Positions 1 to 31,076 of a stretch of DNA of 32,753 nucleotides are shown here, piece after piece (the stretch's first letter is position 1; the number at the start of each line of letters is the position of its first letter). The DNA comes from Epulopiscium sp. Nele67-Bin005 (lineage in GTDB: Bacteria; Bacillota; Clostridia; Lachnospirales; Cellulosilyticaceae), in contig LNZR01000072.1 of the NCBI GenBank assembly GCA_002007365.1, positions 1 to 32,753 on the forward strand. Reading direction: 5' to 3'. The position numbers and the translations under genes were made by a program. Below the pieces are notes generated by a model. It was given only the letters and a program-made list of their open reading frames with translations, did not search any database and had not been told where the DNA came from.

Positions 1-17
1 ACTAAAATATTTTTTTG

Positions 18-51
18 CCCTTGTTATTATGATAATAAGGGTTTATTTTTT
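18..51 (+). terminator. Rho-independent terminator of an upstream gene
   Basis: A 10-bp stem (18-27 with 32-41, one G-U pair, loop TATG) is followed by a T-rich tract at 42-51. It probably ends a gene lying before the window. Its T-run touches the -35 box of the next promoter. Confidence 0.7.
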
Positions 52-78
52 GCATTATTCCAGAAAAAGTTGTATAAT
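50..78 (+). promoter_or_regulatory. Sigma-A-type promoter of the M20 amidohydrolase
   Basis: TTGCAT at 50-55 and a perfect TATAAT at 73-78 are separated by 17 bp. They lie about 35 bp upstream of the chosen start codon and directly after the preceding terminator. Confidence 0.65.
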
Positions 79-112
79 TATAGTAGAAAGATTTTTTGGA
101 GGAGTGATAATA

Positions 113-1288
113 ATGGTTGATATAAACTTAATTGGTGATAAATATTTAGATGAAGTTGTAACTTTGAGGGAGCTGATACATATGTACCCCGAAGATGGAT
201 TTTTAGAATTTAAAACTTCTCAAATGGTGGCAGATGTACTTGAGGGATTAGGTTTGGAAGTAACTAAAAATGTTGCAAAAACAGGGGTTGTAGGTTTGCT
301 TAAAGGAAAATATGAGGGGAAAACTATTTTGCTTAGGGCAGATATGGACGCTTTAAAACTTGAGGAACTTGCTGATGTTCCTTATAAATCAAAGGTTAAA
401 GGTATGATGCACGCCTGCGCTCATGATGGTCATACAGCAGGATTATTAGGTGCGGCTATGATTTTGAGTGAATTAAAAGATGAATTACATGGAAATGTGA
501 AGTTGATTTTTCAACCAGCCGAGGAAGAAAAGGGCGGGGCATTGCCAATGATACAAGAAGGCGTACTTGATAACCCAAAGGTAGATATTGCAGTGGGTGC
601 GCATCTGTGGGGAAGTGAAAAAGCTGGTGAAATTCATGTAAAAGAGGGTGCTATGATGGCTTCTCCAACTATTTTTACGATTAAAGTTATTGGAAAAGGT
701 GGTCATTGTGCGATGCCTCATCAAACTATAGACCCTACTATAATTACAGCCCAGATTATAAATAATTTGCAATCTGTTGTGAGTAGAATGTCAAATCCAC
801 TTGAGCCAGTAGTTTTAAGTATTGGTCAAATTCATGCTGGACATTGTTTCAATGTTATCCCTAATGAAGTTTTTGTGGAGGGAAGCGTGAGAATTTTTGA
901 TGAAAATACAGCTAAGAGGGTTGAAGAGCAGATGGAGAGCATTATTAAAGGAATTACTGAAGCTTATGGAGCTGAGTATGAATTTAATTTTAGAGTAATT
1001 TATCCACCTGTAATTAATAATGGTGAAATTGTAAATTTGGTTAAAAGTTCAACTACAAAAATTTTAGGAGAAGAAAAGGTATTCAATTTACAAGAACCAA
1101 GTATGGGAGGCGAAGATTTTTCATACTTTGGGCATCATGTTCCTAGTGCGTTTTTCTTTTTGGGAATAGGAGAAAGTAAAGAAAATCCTACAATACATCA
1201 CAATCCATATTTCAACTGGGATAGCAAAATTACACTAAAGTTATCAAAATGTATGGCTCAAATTGCATATGATTATTTACAAAATTAA
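113..1288 (+). CDS. M20 family metallo-amidohydrolase (N-acyl amino acid / hippurate hydrolase type)
   Basis: A 391-residue cytosolic zinc hydrolase of the M20D subfamily, which removes acyl groups from N-acylated amino acids or similar amides. Visible motifs are LRADMDA (about residues 75-80), the metal-binding ACAHDGH (101-107; C102, H104), the catalytic glutamate pair in QPAEE (134-138), AHLWG near 163, GGEDFSYF near the C-terminus and a final metal-binding HHNPYF. Length matches the family. The ATG at 113 is chosen because GGAGG lies at 98-102; an in-frame start at 29 would lie upstream of the promoter. The gene appears monocistronic, with a promoter directly before it and a terminator after it. 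The family is clear; the natural substrate cannot be told from sequence. Confidence 0.92.
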   Translation: MVDINLIGDKYLDEVVTLRELIHMYPEDGFLEFKTSQMVADVLEGLGLEVTKNVAKTGVVGLLKGKYEGKTILLRADMDALKLEELADVPYKSKVKGMMHACAHDGHTAGLLGAAMILSELKDELHGNVKLIFQPAEEEKGGALPMIQEGVLDNPKVDIAVGAHLWGSEKAGEIHVKEGAMMASPTIFTIKVIGKGGHCAMPHQTIDPTIITAQIINNLQSVVSRMSNPLEPVVLSIGQIHAGHCFNVIPNEVFVEGSVRIFDENTAKRVEEQMESIIKGITEAYGAEYEFNFRVIYPPVINNGEIVNLVKSSTTKILGEEKVFNLQEPSMGGEDFSYFGHHVPSAFFFLGIGESKENPTIHHNPYFNWDSKITLKLSKCMAQIAYDYLQN

Positions 1289-7900: not shown

Positions 7901-9205
7901 ATGAAAAAGTTAACTTTTAGAAGTGGAATTCATATACCTAACAATAAAGTTAGAACGTATTCTAAGAAAATAGAAGTTTTTAATAGCGATAAAGATTTTG
8001 TTTTTCCGATGAAATCAACAGTACCATGTGTGGAAATCGGGGAACGTGTTTTGGTAGGGCAACGGATAGCTGAACCTATTGATAATAAAGGTGTTCCTGC
8101 TCATAGTAGTATTTCAGGAATTGTTAAGGCTATTGAGCGAAAAGATGTATTTTTTGGTGAATTAATTGAAAATATTGTAATAAAAAATGATAATAAATTT
8201 GAAACAGTTAATTATAATTCTTCTGGAAATTATAAATCATTATTGGCTCAAGAGATTATTGGAGATATTAAAAACGCTGGAATTGTGGGTCTTGGGGGGG
8301 CTGCATTTCCAACATTTTTAAAGTTATCTCCACCGAATATTAATGCGATTGATGCAATTATTATTAATGGTGCAGAGTGTGAGCCGTATTTAACGTGTGA
8401 TTATAGATTGATGGTTGAAAATACTCATGAAATTATTGAGGGAGCAAGAATTTTATTGCATTTATTTCCTTATGCCAAAGTTTATATTGGGGTTGAAGAT
8501 GATAAAATGGAAGCTATAACTCAACTTGAAAAAATGATTAGTCCTTCAGATGGAGGCAAAATTATTATAAAAAAGCTTATTACTAAATACCCTCAAGGAT
8601 ATGAAAAAAATCTAATATATTCTATTTTAGAGAGGGAGGTGCCTGTTGGTAAATTGCCGTTAGATGTTGGTTGTATTGTACAAAATGTGGGGACAATTGT
8701 TGCAATTTGTAGAGCAATAACAACAGGAGAAGCCTTAATAAGGAGGGTTGTTACAGTAAGTGGGGCTGGTGTTCGTGCGCCAAAAAATTTAGAAGTTAGA
8801 CTAGGGACTTCATTTAGAGAAGTGTTAAAATATTGTGATTGGAATGAAGATGATACTATAAAAATTATTGCTGGAGGGCCTATGATGGGGAGTGCAATAA
8901 TTGATATTGATGCACCTATTACAAAGGGTGTTTCAGGAGTGTTGTGTTTTACTAAAGATGCAGTTTCGTTTTCCTTACAAAGTAATTGTATTCGGTGTAG
9001 CAAATGTGTAAATGCCTGCCCTATGTATCTATTGCCAAATATGTTAAATCAATTATCTATTAGAAATAAATATGCAGATTTTAAAAATTATAATGGTATG
9101 AGCTGTATGGAATGTGGAAGTTGTACGTATATTTGCCCATCAAAGCGACATTTGGTACAAACTATAAGGAAGGCGAAGTTTGTTATTGGTCAAACAAGAG
9201 TGTAG
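7901..9205 (+). CDS. rnfC: Rnf electron transport complex subunit C
   Basis: A 434-residue membrane-associated subunit of the Rnf ferredoxin:NAD+ oxidoreductase. RnfC takes electrons to NAD(H) through FMN and two [4Fe-4S] clusters. The N-terminal part (FRSGIHIPNNK, then a lipoyl-like fold around residues 40-80) matches the family. GLGGAAFPT is the nucleotide-binding glycine-rich motif. Two ferredoxin clusters are visible: C363, C366, C369, C373 (followed by PMYLLP) and C402, C405, C408, C412 (followed by PSKR). Length is normal for Firmicutes. The ATG follows GGGGG-type Shine-Dalgarno DNA nine bases after ygiQ. It opens the rnf block C, D-G, E, A, B; the D-G part is usually two genes. Confidence 0.93.
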   Translation: MKKLTFRSGIHIPNNKVRTYSKKIEVFNSDKDFVFPMKSTVPCVEIGERVLVGQRIAEPIDNKGVPAHSSISGIVKAIERKDVFFGELIENIVIKNDNKFETVNYNSSGNYKSLLAQEIIGDIKNAGIVGLGGAAFPTFLKLSPPNINAIDAIIINGAECEPYLTCDYRLMVENTHEIIEGARILLHLFPYAKVYIGVEDDKMEAITQLEKMISPSDGGKIIIKKLITKYPQGYEKNLIYSILEREVPVGKLPLDVGCIVQNVGTIVAICRAITTGEALIRRVVTVSGAGVRAPKNLEVRLGTSFREVLKYCDWNEDDTIKIIAGGPMMGSAIIDIDAPITKGVSGVLCFTKDAVSFSLQSNCIRCSKCVNACPMYLLPNMLNQLSIRNKYADFKNYNGMSCMECGSCTYICPSKRHLVQTIRKAKFVIGQTRV

Positions 9206-9220
9206 AAAAGGGGGGATATT

Positions 9221-10810
9221 ATGCACACTTTATTAAATGTGTCTTCATCACCACATATGAGGGATAAAAATACAATTCAAACAATTATGTTAGATGTAAT
9301 AATTGCATTGATACCTGTAATATTAACGAGTATATATTACTTTGGAAACGATGCATTAATATTAATTGGTGTGAGTGTGAGTTCGTGTGTGTTTTTTGAA
9401 TATATTTGGCAAAAAATATTTGGACAAAAAGTAACAGTATTAGATTTAAGTGCAGTAATTACAGGGATTTTATTAGCCTTCAATTTACCCTCGCAAGTTC
9501 CTGTATATACAGTAGTTGTAGGTGCTTTTGTAGCTATTATTTTGGTGAAACAATGTTTTGGTGGAATAGGACAAAACTTTTTAAATCCAGCACTTACAGC
9601 AAGAATTTTTTTGTTATTAGTGTATCCTGTACAAATGACGGATTTTAGTGCAGAAATTTTAACAGACATATCAATGGATATAGTAGCAAGTGCAACCATT
9701 GAAAATGATGCAGTTACAGGAGCAACAACCACTGAAATTGATTTGTTATCAGGTGCTACACCTCTTGTTTTATTAGATAATAATGATATTGAAAATTTAC
9801 CTTCTATGATTGATGCTATGACCGGAAATATAACAGGAACACTAGGTGAAACTTCAGCATTGGCAATACTTTTAGGAGGATTGTATTTGTTATATAAACA
9901 AGTTATCACGTGGCATATTCCAGTTTTTTATATAGGAACAATTTTTATAAGTGCAACATTATACGGGGGTTTAACTACAGGGTTGTACCATATAATGTTG
10001 GGTGGAGTAATGCTGGCAGGAGTTTTCATGTTAACTGACTATACAACAACACCAATGACTGTTAAGGGTCAAATTATTTTTGCGATAGGAGCAGGGCTTT
10101 TAACCTTTGTATTTAGAGTGTTTAGTGCATATCCAGCAGGCGTTAGTTATAGTATTTTGTTTATGAATTTGGCTGTACCGTTAATTGATAGATTTGTTTA
10201 TAATAGAGTTTTTGGTGGAGAAAAAAGAGGAATTAAAGAAGCGTTGAAATTAGGTATGATGATGGGGATAATGGCTTTGATTTGTGCTGGCGTTTTATCC
10301 ATTGTGAATTTTGTGACAGCTCCAATTATTCAAGGTAAAATTTCTATAGAAGAAAATAGTACATTATTTGAATTGAATTTTTATGCAGAAGAATTTGTAG
10401 AAGTTGCTTTTGACGATGGTGAAGAAAGGCAAGTATTTATTGGGACATCTAATGGAAAATATGTAGGTGCTGTAGTAAAAATTGTTTCGCAAGGATATGT
10501 AGGCCCAATTGATATGTTGGTAGGAATTGATAATGAGAATTTAGTAACAGGGATATACTTTTTATCTCATACAGAAAGTGCAAGATTTGGAGCTAATATG
10601 GTAAACGATGATTTTAAAAATCAATTTATAAATAGAAAAACTCCTCTTATTGTCACAAAAACCGAAGCTAAGGACAATGAAATTTCAATTGTTGCAGGCT
10701 CTACAATTACTACAAATGCAGTGGTTAGTGCAGTAAATGAAGCAGTGGAATTTATAAAAAATAATAAAAATGTTGAAGATGTGATTAAAAGTTTTGGAGG
10801 TTGGCAATAA
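9221..10810 (+). CDS. RnfD-RnfG fusion, Rnf complex membrane/flavoprotein subunit
   Basis: A 529-residue open frame covering two normally separate Rnf subunits. Residues 1-332 are RnfD: about ten membrane segments and the covalent-FMN motif SGATPL (T180), with a second similar motif TGATTT (166-171) just before it. Residues about 338-529 are RnfG: one membrane anchor containing LGMMMGIMALICAGVLSIV, then an FMN domain with AGSTITT (492-498; T495 is the likely flavin site, where the family usually has SGAT). The two parts join at FGGEKRGIKEALKLG. A six-A run (10221-10226) lies exactly there. Removing one A would end RnfD shortly after at a TGA (10245-10247), so the fusion may be real or a one-base indel. 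The start has GGGGGA upstream. Confidence 0.85.
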   Translation: MHTLLNVSSSPHMRDKNTIQTIMLDVIIALIPVILTSIYYFGNDALILIGVSVSSCVFFEYIWQKIFGQKVTVLDLSAVITGILLAFNLPSQVPVYTVVVGAFVAIILVKQCFGGIGQNFLNPALTARIFLLLVYPVQMTDFSAEILTDISMDIVASATIENDAVTGATTTEIDLLSGATPLVLLDNNDIENLPSMIDAMTGNITGTLGETSALAILLGGLYLLYKQVITWHIPVFYIGTIFISATLYGGLTTGLYHIMLGGVMLAGVFMLTDYTTTPMTVKGQIIFAIGAGLLTFVFRVFSAYPAGVSYSILFMNLAVPLIDRFVYNRVFGGEKRGIKEALKLGMMMGIMALICAGVLSIVNFVTAPIIQGKISIEENSTLFELNFYAEEFVEVAFDDGEERQVFIGTSNGKYVGAVVKIVSQGYVGPIDMLVGIDNENLVTGIYFLSHTESARFGANMVNDDFKNQFINRKTPLIVTKTEAKDNEISIVAGSTITTNAVVSAVNEAVEFIKNNKNVEDVIKSFGGWQ

Positions 10811-11385
10811 TGTTAATGCTTGTTAAAAAAGCAAAAGAAAAATTGAGGTTTGATGACCCGATTTTATTACAAATATTGATGCTATGTCCTTTGATTTCTT
10901 TAACGAATACTGCTATAAATTCGCTAATCATGGGAGGGTTAACTATAATAGTTTTTTTGTGTTCAATGATTATTATATGTAAAATCCAAACAAATATACC
11001 AGCTCAACTTTATTTGTTTATAAGGTTGATGATAATTGCAAGCTTTACTACTATAGTTGCGTTAATTTTTCAGGCTTTTAATTTTGAAATGTATAAGCAA
11101 TTTGAAATTTTTATACCTTCTATTATGGTAAATAGTTTTATTTTAAGTTTATGTATCAAAAAAAGTAATGGGCTTAATGATAGTGTTTTATTAAGTGGAT
11201 TATTTTTGGGGTGTGTATTTATTATAGGTATTTTTAGGGAAATTTTAGGAATGGGTCAATTGTTTGGAAAGCAAATAACGACTATTTATAATTTGACATC
11301 AATTTTATCATTAGCGCCGGGGATATTTTTTTTATTTGCCATAGGCTTGGGTATTATTAATGTTCTAAAAACTAAAATAAACTAA
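10810..11385 (+). CDS. rnfE: Rnf complex subunit E (divergent)
   Basis: A 191-residue integral membrane subunit (about six helices) of the Rnf ion-translocating core, related to NqrD. Family features are LMLCPLISLTN (C26, a ligand of the membrane Fe-S centre shared with RnfA), FNFE...IFIPSIMVN and FREILGMGQLFG. At the second expected ligand position the family's VNC is VNS here (S109); the nearest Cys is C115. Sequence divergence is high for this normally conserved subunit. The ATG at 10810 shares its first base with the last base of the preceding TAA stop. GGAGG at 10796-10800 supports this start over a TTG three codons upstream. Confidence 0.85.
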   Translation: MLMLVKKAKEKLRFDDPILLQILMLCPLISLTNTAINSLIMGGLTIIVFLCSMIIICKIQTNIPAQLYLFIRLMIIASFTTIVALIFQAFNFEMYKQFEIFIPSIMVNSFILSLCIKKSNGLNDSVLLSGLFLGCVFIIGIFREILGMGQLFGKQITTIYNLTSILSLAPGIFFLFAIGLGIINVLKTKIN

Positions 11386-11399
11386 AGGAAGTGAGCTAT

Positions 11400-11969
11400 A
11401 TGCAAGAATTAATATTATTGTTCGTTACTATATCTTTGATTAATAGTATAGTAATAACGGATTATTTAGAGGAGTGTCCCTCTGTTAGGGTGTATAAAAA
11501 AATGGAAGTAACTATAAAAGCGGGGTGTGTTATATCGTTTATTTTAATAGTATCTTCAGTATTATTTTATGCTATGTACAATTTTGTGCTGATGCCTCTA
11601 AATATGGAATTTTTGCGTATAGTGGTACTTACTGTTTTGATTGTATGGGTGGCGCAAATGTTGGAATTAATATTGCCTTCCATACAATTTATAATGAAAA
11701 AATATATGAATTTATTACTTATAAATTGCATTTTGATGGGCTTGATAAGTATGACTATTCAAACGGAAGGGACTCTTATACAACTTGTAATATTAAACAT
11801 AAGTTCATCTATGACTTGTAGTATTATCTCTATGATTATAGTAGCAATTGCTGAACATTTTCAAGAAAGTAATATTATAGCTCCACTTAGAGGGTTGCCG
11901 ATTGTATTTATGATAGCTGGGTTTATATCTCTGACATTGTTAGGGTTTGTAACGGTGGTGCAGTTATGA
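11400..11969 (+). CDS. rnfA: Rnf complex subunit A (divergent)
   Basis: A 189-residue membrane subunit, related to NqrE, that pairs with RnfE to form the transmembrane electron and ion path. Both expected cysteines are present: C26 in LEECPSV (usually GICPFLG) and C110 in LLINCIL (usually TTNC). The C-terminal part (LRGLPIVFMIAGFISLTLLGF) matches the family's KGVPIALITAGLMSLAFMGF pattern. Other positions differ strongly; for example the loop after C26 has lost the conserved FLGVSKK. The ATG at 11400 is preferred because AAGGA precedes it by about nine bases; an in-frame GTG lies three codons earlier. The stop overlaps the rnfB start (ATGA). Confidence 0.85.
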   Translation: MQELILLFVTISLINSIVITDYLEECPSVRVYKKMEVTIKAGCVISFILIVSSVLFYAMYNFVLMPLNMEFLRIVVLTVLIVWVAQMLELILPSIQFIMKKYMNLLLINCILMGLISMTIQTEGTLIQLVILNISSSMTCSIISMIIVAIAEHFQESNIIAPLRGLPIVFMIAGFISLTLLGFVTVVQL

Positions 11970-12643
11970 TTTTGGTGGTAAGTCCAATAGTTATACTGGG
12001 TGGGGTGTGTATAATTTTTGGGGTAACAATGACTTTAGTGCCGAATAAAAGTAAAAATGTGTCTATTTTTGAATGCGAAAAATGCGATTTAGATATTTGC
12101 AAGCAGGTAAGATTATCTAGTAATAAAGTAGAGAAGCAGACGGCCGTTGTTAAATGTAATGGCAATAATCATAACTCTAAATTGAGGTATAATTATAGTG
12201 GGCATATGGGTTGTGCCGATTTAAATTTACTGGAACTTGGAAATAAAGTGTGTAAGTATGGGTGCTTGGGGCTTGGGAGTTGTGTTGAAGTTTGTCCACA
12301 AAATGCTATAAAAATCATTGATGGTTTAGCTGTTATTAATAATAAAAAATGTACAGCTTGTAAAAAATGTATTATAGTCTGTCCTAAATCTTTGATTAAA
12401 ATCGAACCTGCAAATCCTGTCTATCAGGTTAGGTGTAATTCTAAAGAACGAGGGACTAAGGTAAAATCGTTGTGTAATGTTGGTTGTAACGGGTGTGAGA
12501 TTTGTGTTAAGTGGTGTAAATTTGATGCTATTAAAATAATAGACAATTTAGCATATATTGATACAAAAAGTTGCACCAGTTGTGGAAGTTGTGCGTCAAA
12601 ATGTCCAACAAAAGCTATAAATAATTTAATTTTATACAAATAA
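11966..12643 (+). CDS. rnfB: Rnf complex subunit B, multi-cluster ferredoxin (short form)
   Basis: A 225-residue membrane-anchored iron-sulfur protein, the entry point for electrons from ferredoxin. An N-terminal helix (residues about 5-25) is followed by CEKCDLDIC, a C-x2-C-x4-C motif that stands for the usual NCGACGYxGC cluster. The usual fourth Cys and its surrounding segment are missing or replaced by the VVKC block about 18 residues later. The rest is typical: CKYGCLGLGSC...CP, CTACKKCIIVCPK, GCNGCEICVKWC and CTSCGSCASKCPT, forming two-cluster ferredoxin domains. It is shorter than most clostridial RnfB proteins. The ATGA overlap with rnfA indicates coupled translation. It is the last gene of the cluster. 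Confidence 0.88.
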   Translation: MILVVSPIVILGGVCIIFGVTMTLVPNKSKNVSIFECEKCDLDICKQVRLSSNKVEKQTAVVKCNGNNHNSKLRYNYSGHMGCADLNLLELGNKVCKYGCLGLGSCVEVCPQNAIKIIDGLAVINNKKCTACKKCIIVCPKSLIKIEPANPVYQVRCNSKERGTKVKSLCNVGCNGCEICVKWCKFDAIKIIDNLAYIDTKSCTSCGSCASKCPTKAINNLILYK

Positions 12644-16314: not shown

Positions 16315-19300
16315 GTGAAAAAGTTTTATGAAAAAGTTATTCAACTAAGTACAGAACGTGTGTTCATTATGCTAGTTGGAATATACTGCCTCTTTGCAAT
16401 TTTGCTTTTGAGATTTTATCAATTACAGGTAATACAATATGATGATTATGCAAAAAATGTACGAGTGGGGGTTGAACGGCAAATTGAAATTCCTGCTACA
16501 CGAGGATTAATTTTTGATAGATATGGTAGGCCTCTTGCGATAAATCAGCCAACCCATATTTTAAAAGTTGATCAGCAGGTTTCGCAGTCATCAACTCAAT
16601 TAAATGAAACACTATTAAAAGTTGCACAATTGTTAGAAAGTAATGGCGATACTTATATAGATGATATTCCAATTAGTAAAACAGAACCATTTGAGTATAC
16701 AGGAACTAAGACTGCAATAAATCAGTTTATGTATAGTATTCCATACAATCATGAGGAACATAGGCAACAGTTATTGGCTTTATCAGCAGAAGAGGTTATA
16801 CAATATTTGCGTGGAAGATATTACATTCCAGAAAGTATGACTAATGAGGAAGCTAGAAAAGTTATTGCTATGAGAACGACAATGTATCCATACACATACC
16901 AGCAATATAAATTAACAACAATTGCTACAGGTATTTCAGAAAATACTATTGCAAGTGTTCAAGAAAATTATATGAATTTCCCAGGAGTAAGTGTGGGGAT
17001 TGATTCTGTAAGATACTATCCAGAAGGTGAATATATGGGTAATATTCTTGGGTATACCCGTGTGATGACAGATAGTATTTATAGTCAATTAGAAGGTCAA
17101 GGCTATGATAAGAATGATGTTGTTGGACATGAAGGAATTGAGCGTTCAATGGAGTCGGAACTTCGTGGGCAAAAAGGGCTTGAACGTATTGAGGTTGATA
17201 CGTTTGGGAGAAAAGTTCATACTATAGAAGAAGATGCGGCAATTCAAGGAAATGATATTTTTCTCACTATAGATATTGATTTGCAACGAGAAGTTTATAC
17301 GGCTATTGAAAAAAGATTAAGCGAAGCTTTGGTAGTAAGATTGCGTGGACAAAAGTCAGCAGTATCAGCTAGGGAAGTATTAATTTCTATGATAGAAAGT
17401 AGTCAGTTATTAGTTAGTAAGATGAGAGATGCTGAAGAAGGAACACAGCAATTTTATTTATACAACAGTTTATTATTTGAGTATAATAATTTAGATCCTG
17501 TAATTCAAGAAGAACTGACACTTCAACAACTACTTTTACAATGGGCTGAAGAAAAAGAGTCCATAATTACTGATAAACAAATAATTTTAGCGATGCATGA
17601 ACAAGGGTCTTTGAGTTTATCTCCAGAAGTAGTTAATGCAATTTGGGAAAATCCATATGGAGGCGGAGAGGCAATTTTAATTCAGCAACTTCAAGATGGT
17701 CACCTAAAACCTAACCAGATGGCAATTGATCCGTTTAGTGCATCAGCAGTAATAGTTGATGTTAATACAGGAGAAGTATTGGCATTAGTAGGGTATCCAT
17801 CGGTTGATAGTAATGAGCTTGCAAATAATTTTAATTCATATTATCCTACATTATTTGATGATAGAAGTATGCTTTGGAATAGAGCTATGATGACGATAAA
17901 AGCGCCAGGTTCGATTTTTAAAATGGTTAGTGCAACAGCAGGTTTAATGGAAGGTGTTGTATCTCCAAATGAGGCTATTTATTGTTCGGGGGTATTTACA
18001 AAAGCAGGTGAGCCAGCGCCAAAATGTTGGATTTATAATTCTACAGGTGGTGGGCATGGAGCTGTTACTTTGCAAAGAGCTATAGAAGTTTCATGTAACT
18101 GCTATTTTTATGAGGTTGCATATAGATTGGGGATAAAAAATACAGAAGCTTATGGTGGAATTGATGCCTTAACTAAATATGCAACAATGTTTGGGCTAGA
18201 TGAACCTACAGGAATTGAGCTTCCAGAGGCATCTCCAAATGTATCTATGCCATATAATTTAGTAGTTCAAAATGTAACAAGTGTTTTATCTGGGCTTAGA
18301 AATATGAATGAAGAACGGCTAGTAAGTCGGGCTAAAGATATTGGAGATAGATTTACGAAAAGTCTGTATCCTGTTGCAAATGCAAATGCTACTGACATTG
18401 AAGGCAGAATTGAAAATCTTATTCAGTATGAGTTTAAAAGAAATATTGAAGTTGTTTTGCAGGGTGCATTAGCAAATGATATTGAGAAAATCACTCAAAA
18501 ATCTTTGGAAAATATTCAGGGATATTTGCAATTAAATTTAACTGCTGTAGTGGAAGATGTTGTAGTAAATACAATGGCTGATACTTCTTCACGTTCATTA
18601 AAAGCAAAAGCTACAGAGCAAGTAACAAAGCATATTAAATATATGATTACAGATACGGTTGAAGACATTGTAGAAGATGCTTTAGATGATATTTTGCCAA
18701 ATGATATTTTAGAGGTGTATAGATATGCGTATACGACTTTGTATAATAAGGTTGTAATTGCAGACCAAGATCAAGAATTAATAGATGCTCTTGCGTATAA
18801 GCTTGCTAATATGGAGGCAGATACAGATAAATATTTAACTATGCTAGAGCAAAAAGTTGCTGAAAGTTTGGTAACTGTAATAGGAAGTTATTTATTTGAA
18901 GGAATCGATATGGAGTGGAATGATGGGATAACGATAAGAACTGCAATTGGTCAGGGGCAAAATGCATTCTCACCAGTTCAGATGGCACGTTATACAGCAG
19001 CTCTTGCTAATGGAGAAGTTGTGCATGATTTAAAAATTGTAGGAGCAGTTTATGACTCAAAAGAAACCCAAACTCTTCAATCTACAGAGGTAAAAATAAA
19101 TAGTACATTAGATATTCCAGATGAATATTTAGAGGAAATTTACAAAGGAATGCAACGAGTTGTAACTGGTAGTTCAGGAACTTTGAGAAATCACTTTAGG
19201 GGGATACAGGTTGATACTGCAGGAAAAACAGGAACGGCTCAAGAAGGAAAACATGAACACAGTTGGTATGCAGGGTTTGCACCTGTTGATGATCCACAAA

Positions 19301-19440
19301 TTGTTGTAGTAACTTCTGTTTATAATGAAGATGGGCTTGGGAGTTATGGTAGTCAGATTGCTAGAGATATTTTTGAAATTTACTATAACGTTGGACAAGA
19401 GGTTGAAAAAACTACGCTTCAATATGAGTTTTTAGAGTAG
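16315..19440 (+). CDS. Penicillin-binding protein 2 (class B transpeptidase), long form
   Basis: A 1,041-residue peptidoglycan transpeptidase, the expected partner of RodA. One N-terminal membrane helix (about 17-35) precedes the class B PBP dimerisation domain (ATRGLIFDRYGRPLA near residue 60, then a large periplasmic part). The active-site motifs are S533-I-F-K536, S593-C-N595 and K971-T-G973. Serine-to-SxN spacing is the normal ~60. Two regions are much longer than in E. coli PBP2: residues ~345-468 before the catalytic domain and ~645-865 between SxN and KTG, both helical and acidic. The start is GTG with GGGAGG just upstream. It sits between mreD and minC. Long PBP2 forms occur in Clostridia, so the length is not necessarily aberrant. 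Confidence 0.92.
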   Translation: MKKFYEKVIQLSTERVFIMLVGIYCLFAILLLRFYQLQVIQYDDYAKNVRVGVERQIEIPATRGLIFDRYGRPLAINQPTHILKVDQQVSQSSTQLNETLLKVAQLLESNGDTYIDDIPISKTEPFEYTGTKTAINQFMYSIPYNHEEHRQQLLALSAEEVIQYLRGRYYIPESMTNEEARKVIAMRTTMYPYTYQQYKLTTIATGISENTIASVQENYMNFPGVSVGIDSVRYYPEGEYMGNILGYTRVMTDSIYSQLEGQGYDKNDVVGHEGIERSMESELRGQKGLERIEVDTFGRKVHTIEEDAAIQGNDIFLTIDIDLQREVYTAIEKRLSEALVVRLRGQKSAVSAREVLISMIESSQLLVSKMRDAEEGTQQFYLYNSLLFEYNNLDPVIQEELTLQQLLLQWAEEKESIITDKQIILAMHEQGSLSLSPEVVNAIWENPYGGGEAILIQQLQDGHLKPNQMAIDPFSASAVIVDVNTGEVLALVGYPSVDSNELANNFNSYYPTLFDDRSMLWNRAMMTIKAPGSIFKMVSATAGLMEGVVSPNEAIYCSGVFTKAGEPAPKCWIYNSTGGGHGAVTLQRAIEVSCNCYFYEVAYRLGIKNTEAYGGIDALTKYATMFGLDEPTGIELPEASPNVSMPYNLVVQNVTSVLSGLRNMNEERLVSRAKDIGDRFTKSLYPVANANATDIEGRIENLIQYEFKRNIEVVLQGALANDIEKITQKSLENIQGYLQLNLTAVVEDVVVNTMADTSSRSLKAKATEQVTKHIKYMITDTVEDIVEDALDDILPNDILEVYRYAYTTLYNKVVIADQDQELIDALAYKLANMEADTDKYLTMLEQKVAESLVTVIGSYLFEGIDMEWNDGITIRTAIGQGQNAFSPVQMARYTAALANGEVVHDLKIVGAVYDSKETQTLQSTEVKINSTLDIPDEYLEEIYKGMQRVVTGSSGTLRNHFRGIQVDTAGKTGTAQEGKHEHSWYAGFAPVDDPQIVVVTSVYNEDGLGSYGSQIARDIFEIYYNVGQEVEKTTLQYEFLE

Positions 19441-28481: not shown

Positions 28482-31076
28482 ATGAAATCAAAACGATTGA
28501 GCTTGGTTATTGCAGGAATTATGCTGGGGTGTCAGATTGGTACAGGCTATGCAGTACAAGCGTTTAATACATATTCACCAATCATTATTGCAACGAATGA
28601 TGTAGATAATGAAGCAACAATTTCAATTAGAGATAACAATTTAGAGCAAAAAATTTTGGAGCAAGTAGATAACAATCAAGATGGCAAAATTCAGCTAAGT
28701 GAAATTGACTCACTTAAAAATTTAGTCGCAGATGATGCAGGCATTGAACTCATTGATGGAATTGAAAATGCGATTAATTTACAAAGTCTATCTTTGACAG
28801 ATAATTTAATAGAAAATGTATCGTATTTATCAACATTATCTCAACTTACAAAATTGGACTTATCAAATAATAATATTACAGATATTACGCCTTTATTAAA
28901 ACTGAACAATCTACAACAATTAAATATAGAGCAAAATTTATTGGATTTAAAAAATGAAACTACACTTAATGTTATTGAAACTTTAGAAAATAATAATGTT
29001 CAAGTAACATATTTAAATCAACAAATGATGGTTGATGAAGAGTCACCAATTTTGGAATATGATGGAGAATTAGAGTTTGAAGTTATGCAATATGAGTACT
29101 TTGAAATGCCTAATGTTGTAGCCGTGGACAATTCAGGTGAAGCAGAGATAAATTTATTGATAACTAAAGATGAAGAGGAAGTACAAAGTTTTACAACATC
29201 AATTTTTGGATTATACACATTAACTTATACTGCTGTTGATAAATCAGGAAATGAAAGTGACCCTCTATTAATTTCTTTAAATGTAATAGAAAGTGAAGTC
29301 GATGAAGTTTTAATATTTACAGATGCCGAGTTAGAAAAGAAGATTTTAGCTGAAGTCGATGAAAATAGAGATGGAAAAGTTCAACGTAGTGAGATTGAAA
29401 AGCTAGAACTGCTTTCATTAAACGATATACAAGTTAGCAATTTAGAAAGATTGGAGAACGCTATAAATTTAACAGATTTATACGTTGGAAATAACAATTT
29501 AACTGACATCACTTGGCTAGATACTCTTACGAGTTTAACTTATTTATCAGTTTATAACAATGAAATTACAGATATTTCTCCACTTTCTGCTTTAATTAAT
29601 TTAACCGATTTAGATTTAGGGAATTCAAATGGTGGAAATAAAGTGGAAGATATTAGCCCTATTGCTGACTTAACAAACTTAATGTATTTGAGCATGGATA
29701 CAAATCTAGTTGTTGATATAACTCCATTAAATGAATTATTAGAGCTTAGGGGTATAAATTTAAGAAACAATCAAATAATAGACTTAGAGCCACTTTCAGG
29801 ATTGGAAAATCTATTATTTTTGAACGTTAGTAACAATGAAATTTCTGATGTTTCGGCACTTGATGGGCTAGGTCTTATGGAGCTTGACCTAAGTGGAAAT
29901 AATATTACAGATATTAGTGCATTAGCTTCATTAGAATTTTTGTGGGAACTAAATCTTGAAAATAATTTTCTGAATTTAGAAGACGAAGAAACGATGAATG
30001 TCATTAATTATTTTATAGCAAGTGGAGCAGATGTTTCTTATGAACAACAAAAAGAACAATTTGATGATGAAATTCCAATTTTAAATTATGACGGAGAAAT
30101 TCAAATTGTAGTTGTTCAAGGAGATAAAAACTTTGAAATGCCAGTGGTTACAGTAAGTGATAATATTGATACTAACCCTACCTTAAGCCTTAAAATTACT
30201 AAAAATGGTCAGGAAGTAGATGAGGTAGACGTTAATCAATTAGGAACTACGGTTCTAAGTTATACAGCTGTAGATTTTGCAGGAAATCAAAGTCGCCCTC
30301 TTACTTTAAATGTTAATGTAGTTTTAGGCAATGATACAGAAAGTCTTGCAAAAGCTATTTCATACGCAGAAAGTCAGATGTTAAATATCCAACAAAGTAG
30401 TAATGGACATAATGTTTTTAGAAGCGAAGAGTGGGTTACTTCTGTTGAATATAACCGTTTAGCTGTCACAATTACAGCATCAAAAAGAACACTAGAAGAT
30501 TTTGAAATAACTCAAAATGAGTTAGATAAACAATTAGAAACTTTAAATATTGCTGTAGCTAATTTTAATGATGCAAAACAATATGGATTAAAACGTGATA
30601 TCGAGCCAGAGGCAGTTGAGGACACAGAAATTCCAGTTATAAACTATACAGGTAAGTTAGATTTTGAAATTTATCAGGGACAAAGTTTTACAGTACCAAG
30701 ACTTACAGCCACTGATAACATTGATGAAAATATGACAGTTTCACTGGAAATTAGAAGAAATGGTTTAAAAGTTGATATATTTGATTCAGAGTTATCGGGT
30801 ACTTATAAATTGACATATAGTGCCGAGGATAGTGCAGGTAATCAGGCTGAAGATGTTATAATTTTAGTTAAAGTTAATAAAGTCGATGAAAATACAGTAA
30901 TTCCAGAAGTAGAAGAGATTGAGGAAGAAATAATTCCAGAAGTAGAAGAGGTTGAGGAAGAAATAATTCCAGAAGTAGAAGAGGTTGAGGAAGTGCATGT
31001 GTGTTTGTATGTAAAAGCTCATTTTATTGCATTTATTTGTTTTGGAGCTTTTCCAGTGTTTTACGAAGAAGATTGA
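28482..31076 (+). CDS. Secreted modular LRR / EF-hand / Ig-like surface protein, C-terminus replaced by foreign DNA
   Basis: An 864-residue open frame, of which residues 1-837 look genuine. Residues 1-30 are a Sec signal peptide. Two modules follow, each with a calcium-type EF-hand loop (D63 in DNNQDGKIQLSE; D293 in DENRDGKVQRSE), then LRRs (about 3 in the first, about 8 in the second), then an Ig-like DUF5011-type domain (~188-275 and ~531-615). A helical FIVAR-like stretch (~617-705) and a third Ig-like domain (~717-800) come next. Acidic 11-residue repeats (IPEVEEVEEEI) begin at 807. The third copy breaks off at base 30,993. The final 27 residues derive from eukaryote-like DNA and are not part of the protein. 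The real gene should continue, probably to a wall anchor. Confidence 0.85.
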   Translation: MKSKRLSLVIAGIMLGCQIGTGYAVQAFNTYSPIIIATNDVDNEATISIRDNNLEQKILEQVDNNQDGKIQLSEIDSLKNLVADDAGIELIDGIENAINLQSLSLTDNLIENVSYLSTLSQLTKLDLSNNNITDITPLLKLNNLQQLNIEQNLLDLKNETTLNVIETLENNNVQVTYLNQQMMVDEESPILEYDGELEFEVMQYEYFEMPNVVAVDNSGEAEINLLITKDEEEVQSFTTSIFGLYTLTYTAVDKSGNESDPLLISLNVIESEVDEVLIFTDAELEKKILAEVDENRDGKVQRSEIEKLELLSLNDIQVSNLERLENAINLTDLYVGNNNLTDITWLDTLTSLTYLSVYNNEITDISPLSALINLTDLDLGNSNGGNKVEDISPIADLTNLMYLSMDTNLVVDITPLNELLELRGINLRNNQIIDLEPLSGLENLLFLNVSNNEISDVSALDGLGLMELDLSGNNITDISALASLEFLWELNLENNFLNLEDEETMNVINYFIASGADVSYEQQKEQFDDEIPILNYDGEIQIVVVQGDKNFEMPVVTVSDNIDTNPTLSLKITKNGQEVDEVDVNQLGTTVLSYTAVDFAGNQSRPLTLNVNVVLGNDTESLAKAISYAESQMLNIQQSSNGHNVFRSEEWVTSVEYNRLAVTITASKRTLEDFEITQNELDKQLETLNIAVANFNDAKQYGLKRDIEPEAVEDTEIPVINYTGKLDFEIYQGQSFTVPRLTATDNIDENMTVSLEIRRNGLKVDIFDSELSGTYKLTYSAEDSAGNQAEDVIILVKVNKVDENTVIPEVEEIEEEIIPEVEEVEEEIIPEVEEVEEVHVCLYVKAHFIAFICFGAFPVFYEED
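30900..30993 (+). repeat. 33-bp tandem repeat encoding acidic IPEVEEVEEEI units
   Basis: Two complete 33-bp units (30900-30932 and 30933-30965, differing at one visible position) and a 28-bp partial unit (30966-30993). They encode an acidic spacer at the end of the surface protein. The sequence leaves the repeat at the point where foreign DNA begins. Confidence 0.85.

Follow-up and report, generated by a model that had tools for sequence, protein, structure and literature searches.

At the right-hand end of the stretch of DNA analysed here (the window, which is contig C72 in its full length of 32,753 bp, from a genome of 2.09 Mb in 90 contigs that is 89% complete and has a contamination rating of 0.04%), the gene of a surface protein passes, within an array of short repeats, into DNA of a different character. 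The question is whether this junction records an event in the life of the bacterium or a fault of the assembly. The features that bear on it are collected in Table 1. Elsewhere in the window, positions 7901-12643 hold an Rnf-type electron transport operon, in which NCBIfam confirms rnfC, rnfD, rnfE and rnfB; at 529 aa the rnfD ORF is long, its rnfD match covers residues 10-332, and a D-G fusion is possible. A penicillin-binding protein 2 of unusual length is encoded at 16315-19440 (1,041 aa versus 593 for the profile), with insertions within the domain order.

Table 1. Features of the window around the junction and at its left end.
Feature	Positions	Strand	Basis
5' part of the gene of a secreted surface protein: signal-like N-terminus, LRRs, Ig-like domains, start of an acidic repeat stalk	28482..30993	+	ORF, Pfam
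First 2.9 copies of the 33-bp repeat (IIPEVEEVEEE), broken off by the join	30898..30993	+	Tandem Repeats Finder
False join, final bacterial and initial foreign base	30993..30994	.	Loss of register; repeat goes on in C59
Vertebrate-like non-coding DNA, foreign to the bacterial genome	30994..32753	.	Composition, no long ORF, no relatives, tail class
Spurious C-terminus, VHVCLYVKAHFIAFICFGAFPVFYEED*, of the 864-aa predicted product	30994..31076	+	ORF
127 bp shared exactly with the right end of contig C45, a normal graph break	1..127	.	k = 127

The array (98% matches) is cut with single-base precision. Its third copy agrees with the second at 31 of 33 bases, the last of these being 30,993; at 30,994 the expected 'AA' of the copy gives way to 'TG', the register is lost, and no match to the repeat follows downstream. 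The first-pass annotation had described such an abrupt end of the repeat match, followed by foreign DNA of vertebrate character, and on both counts our analysis agrees with it. The tail is depleted in CpG (observed/expected 0.28, against 0.60 in the gene), has an excess of TG/CA (1.36, against 1.15), and differs in composition from the intergenic DNA of the same genome as well; no stop-free run in it exceeds 94 codons. The ORF that crosses the junction (28482-31076) has 864 codons with its stop at 31,076, and its product ends in ...EEVEE followed by VHVCLYVKAHFIAFICFGAFPVFYEED*. Stops make up 5.8% of the triplets in the 1,760-bp tail, so that an open extension of 26-27 codons is unremarkable; chance alone gives one of this length in about 18-21% of cases. 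The 26-27 residues after the repeat are a false tail, and the warning that the frame stays open by chance and yields a false protein of 864 residues was well founded.

Where, then, is the rest of the gene? On C72 its product matches LRR_4 (4e-32), Bact_surface_Ig-like (1e-17) and InlK_D3 (1e-8) in Pfam. When the genome was searched with the junction region, close matches to this repeat were found in C72 and C59 only. The minus strand of C59 (7,078 bp) starts within the 33-bp array, in the same frame as C72, and carries 7.4 further copies, seven of them complete. Next come a C-terminal region, in which an SLH domain scores 23.7 bits (Pfam cut-off 20.8), and a stop codon, beyond which inspection of the sequence reveals an intergenic stretch, ilvC, leuA, leuC, leuD and the start of leuB. 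The gene on C72 lacks an end and that on C59 a beginning, each contig holding the half of the ORF that is missing from the other. Moreover, paralogues on C34, C55 and C56 combine the C72-type domains (LRR and/or Ig) with the C59-type C-terminus in one open frame, which supports the pairing. The array and C-terminus on C59 are the authentic 3' half of the C72 gene. No contig spans the connection in the middle of the array, and the variant bases of the copies give no exact overlap between C72 and C59, so that copy number and length can be stated as lower bounds only: the full array probably has ten or more copies, in a protein of about 1,140 residues or more. With LRR and Ig domains on C72 and an SLH domain on C59, the reunited gene would encode an SLH-anchored LRR/Ig surface protein. 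It shares its domain order (LRR, Ig-like, acidic stalk, SLH) with the internalin-like LRR/Ig surface proteins with SLH anchors of Clostridia and is an ordinary member of that group, its repeat copies being counted as a lower bound. A search of a collection of genome contigs for the surface protein returned distant LRR relatives only. Acidic Pro-Glu-Val stalks are also present in other surface proteins of this genome (C43 and C19), in amidase-like and Ig-like contexts.

The tail of C72 is one of many. Both ends of all 90 contigs (180 ends) went into a scan of 1.67 Mb, for which we seeded a two-state third-order Markov model with the tails of C72 and C59 and retrained it four times. Fifty-seven of the 58 foreign-looking segments touch a contig end, while bases within 3.3 kb of an end make up 34% of those scanned; the sole internal segment, on C5, is a low-complexity bacterial gene. 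Five terminal segments were rejected as animal tails: the right end of C8 and the left ends of C39 and C79 are rRNA/tRNA, the right end of C79 is a collagen-like gene, and that of C36 an M23 peptidase gene. After removals, about 52 tails are left on 43 contigs, with a median length of 1.47 kb and a total of about 82 kb; three calls (both ends of C49 and the right end of C71) are weak, and about 50 is a fair count. All are terminal, and no internal animal-like island flanked by bacterial DNA was found in the 1.67 Mb scanned. Foreign DNA that is restricted to contig ends and hits many unrelated loci is what a chimeric assembly contaminated with host DNA would contain. C59 itself ends, on the side away from the array, in such a tail, which contains (CA)n microsatellites and meets the bacterial sequence within leuB. 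Several contigs below 10 kb, C67, C40 and C68 among them, are a quarter to a half animal-like and still binned with the bacterium. On C87, positions 1323-2620 hold a CRISPR array of at least 19 spacers (32-bp repeat GTCTCCCCTCATGTAGGGGTGTGGATTGAAAT), the outer end of which is replaced by animal-like DNA; the left end of this contig is animal-like only to about 1,328, with the array thereafter. The right end of C88 (9066-10622) is a three-part chimera: the bacterial sequence gives way to about 1.2 kb of animal-like DNA containing CA microsatellites, and the very end of the contig holds a bacterial-looking ORF of 111 aa, which has no match in Pfam and resembles Sau3AI/MutH by eye.

Two of the tails reveal what the foreign DNA is. 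The tail at the left end of C62 contains an exon for the thioredoxin-like domain of UGGT (PF18400, E 1.4e-17), preceded by a polypyrimidine tract and AG that resemble a splice acceptor, and that at the left end of C18 an exon for the AbLIM anchor region (PF16182, E 1.6e-18). UGGT is an enzyme of eukaryotic glycoprotein folding and AbLIM an animal protein; these two tails are animal DNA. In the window's own tail, the ORFs of 85-94 aa have no match in Pfam, one of them compared with the PDB had none there, and Rfam returned nothing for the window. Its composition, its membership in the tail set and its lack of bacterial, plasmid or phage relatives indicate that this tail, too, is animal. Comparison with 196 bacterial relatives gave only short matches at chance level and comparison with plasmids and phages none, so that the downstream sequence, whose presence in related bacteria would have spoken for a genuine bacterial region, was not found there. 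The retrotransposon marker RVT_1 has no match in the genome, and two candidate fish repeat motifs had none in viral contigs. The animal is most likely the host fish, as suggested in the first-pass annotation and by the relatives of the genome; a fish would suit a symbiont of the gut.

Further evidence that such joins are false comes from the structure of the assembly. In nineteen pairs of contig ends, among them the left end of C72 with C45, the overlap is exact and 127 bp long, which identifies a de Bruijn assembly with k = 127. In four pairs of contigs (C56/C34, C53/C58, C44/C47 and C48/C80) an identical bacterial stretch splits at one base, continuing as foreign DNA on one side and as bacterial coding sequence on the other. 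Thus, C48 and C80 together give an intact guaB (IMP dehydrogenase) followed by guaA, and on C48 alone guaB is truncated into animal DNA. Branch points such as those in guaB (C48/C80), an MCP gene (C44/C47) and a LacI gene (C56/C34) lie in ordinary unique coding sequence. The authentic continuation of the interrupted gene is thus present in the same genome, in C59 for the window and in C48/C80 for guaB, as in a chimeric contig; the foreign partner that such a contig needs is seen in the exons of the sister tails and, for the window's own tail, in composition and the lack of bacterial relatives. Essential genes are cut as well. Of infB, profile positions 205-584 are kept at the join, and of smc positions 1-413 of 1,181; the assembly yielded no intact copy of either gene and neither of the missing halves. 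Such infB fragments alone would not keep a cell alive, and we therefore regard these ends as assembly gaps capped by foreign DNA; since the joins cut infB and smc, they cannot be real insertions. The genome also has two genes for gshAB, the bifunctional protein of glutathione synthesis (C49:43781-46084 and C83:2927-4735), and the copy on C83 is broken by a join to animal DNA at profile position 585 of 756. Because the gene continues on C59 and because tails sit at contig ends throughout the genome, we judge the junction in the window false. We are close to certain that it is an artefact, in which the LRR/Ig/SLH gene was joined within its 33-bp array to unrelated animal DNA, most likely that of the host fish. 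A chimeric contig with host DNA was already the preferred reading of the first-pass annotation, and the continuation on C59 together with some 50 equivalent tails now bears it out.

How did the joins arise? Host DNA would have been present in the sample, and chimeric molecules could have formed during amplification or library making, by template switching or ligation. In regions of low authentic coverage or of an ambiguous graph, the k = 127 assembler may then have taken the chimeric path, which would have left about 50 contigs with animal tails of 0.5-3 kb. Molecules of this kind, from library making or amplification, most likely gave rise to the joins, rather than graph errors at low k, given the number of joins, their location in ordinary unique genes and the three-part structure of the right end of C88. 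Amplification in particular is not established as the source, since the search for inverted duplicates found one palindrome of 85 bp and none longer, with the proviso that assembler filtering could hide others; nor is there the excess of inverted joins within 10 kb that, along with short complementarity of 2-21 nt at the junction, marks template switching in MDA. This same result speaks for a purely computational misjoin, in which a short common k-mer at low k connects bacterial and host contigs and no chimeric molecule is involved: inverted intramolecular chimeras of the MDA type were not seen. Assemblers of the SPAdes type pass joins made at small k up to k = 127, and the AT-rich, repetitive sequence at the junction would have helped. 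However, the guaB, MCP and LacI joins lie in unique coding sequence, where one would not expect some 50 chance matches of 21 bases to the locally assembled host contig, and the path at the right end of C88 from bacterial to animal to bacterial-looking sequence also speaks against this variant. We consider this variant of the artefact, which overlaps with the explanation by chimeric molecules, possible but rather doubtful.

Under either origin the join is false, and readings that take it as real fare far worse. A transfer from animal to bacterium, with host DNA inserted into the surface-protein repeat of the chromosome, could appeal to the deposited contig, which reads through the junction, and to leuB, where foreign DNA stands on both facing contig ends (the gene is split between C59, at 1-1290, and C64, at 1-about 1050; the left ends of both run into animal-like DNA, and a gap of about 27 bp separates the two parts of the gene); this is the one locus that, taken alone, could suggest an insertion. 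An insertion would have both bacterial flanks in one contig and no uninterrupted allele, whereas we find no internal island, about 52 tails that are all terminal, and an uninterrupted continuation on C59. At four other loci the join and the authentic continuation are likewise both present, and the essential infB and smc would be destroyed. We regard a real transfer as extremely improbable. Hardly any more credence is due to the idea that host DNA is physically part of a minority of the gut bacterium's genome copies, having been ligated to them at broken sites of the chromosome before DNA extraction, for which leuB would be the best example. Finally, the open codons past the repeat might suggest that the tail is bacterial, the gene being naturally short and followed by a mobile element or a pseudogenised region, but a run of this length arises readily by chance, the CpG and TG/CA values are unlike those of the genome's genes and intergenic DNA, and the comparisons with 196 relatives, plasmids and phages turned up no mobile element or conserved downstream region, which leaves this reading next to no probability.

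The artefact to which we attribute the junction is of a well-known kind. Vertebrate contamination of bacterial assemblies reportedly yields spurious proteins, as Breitwieser et al. are said to have described in 2019. The practical meaning of the present case is a caution and not a discovery: some 80 kb of animal DNA on genuine contigs gives rise to false protein ends and to apparent transfers from host to bacterium. For the gene in the window, the true surface protein is recovered by trimming at 30,993 and adding C59. In chimeras made by MDA, strand displacement and re-priming produce joins that are mostly inverted, intramolecular and within 10 kb (Lasken and Stockwell, 2007; PMC1855051). The joins described here resemble them in connecting unrelated stretches of template abruptly, and differ in running between species and in the lack of inverted duplicates of note. 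Another parallel is the vertebrate DNA filed under the names of bacteria, with the spurious proteins that result, where the contaminated contigs used as illustration stay below 1 kb in length and have high-coverage alignments to a sheep genome (Steinegger and Salzberg, 2020; PMC7218494). Here as there, animal DNA carries the name of a bacterium and automatic gene calling turns it into a false protein or C-terminus; unlike in those cases, about 52 ends of long, genuine bacterial contigs have the foreign DNA attached to them. Tails fused in this manner escape whole-contig screens as well as checks based on single-copy genes, as the score of 0.04% illustrates. The junction is thus a fresh instance of a familiar artefact, notable only for how widely it has spread in an assembly scored as nearly uncontaminated.
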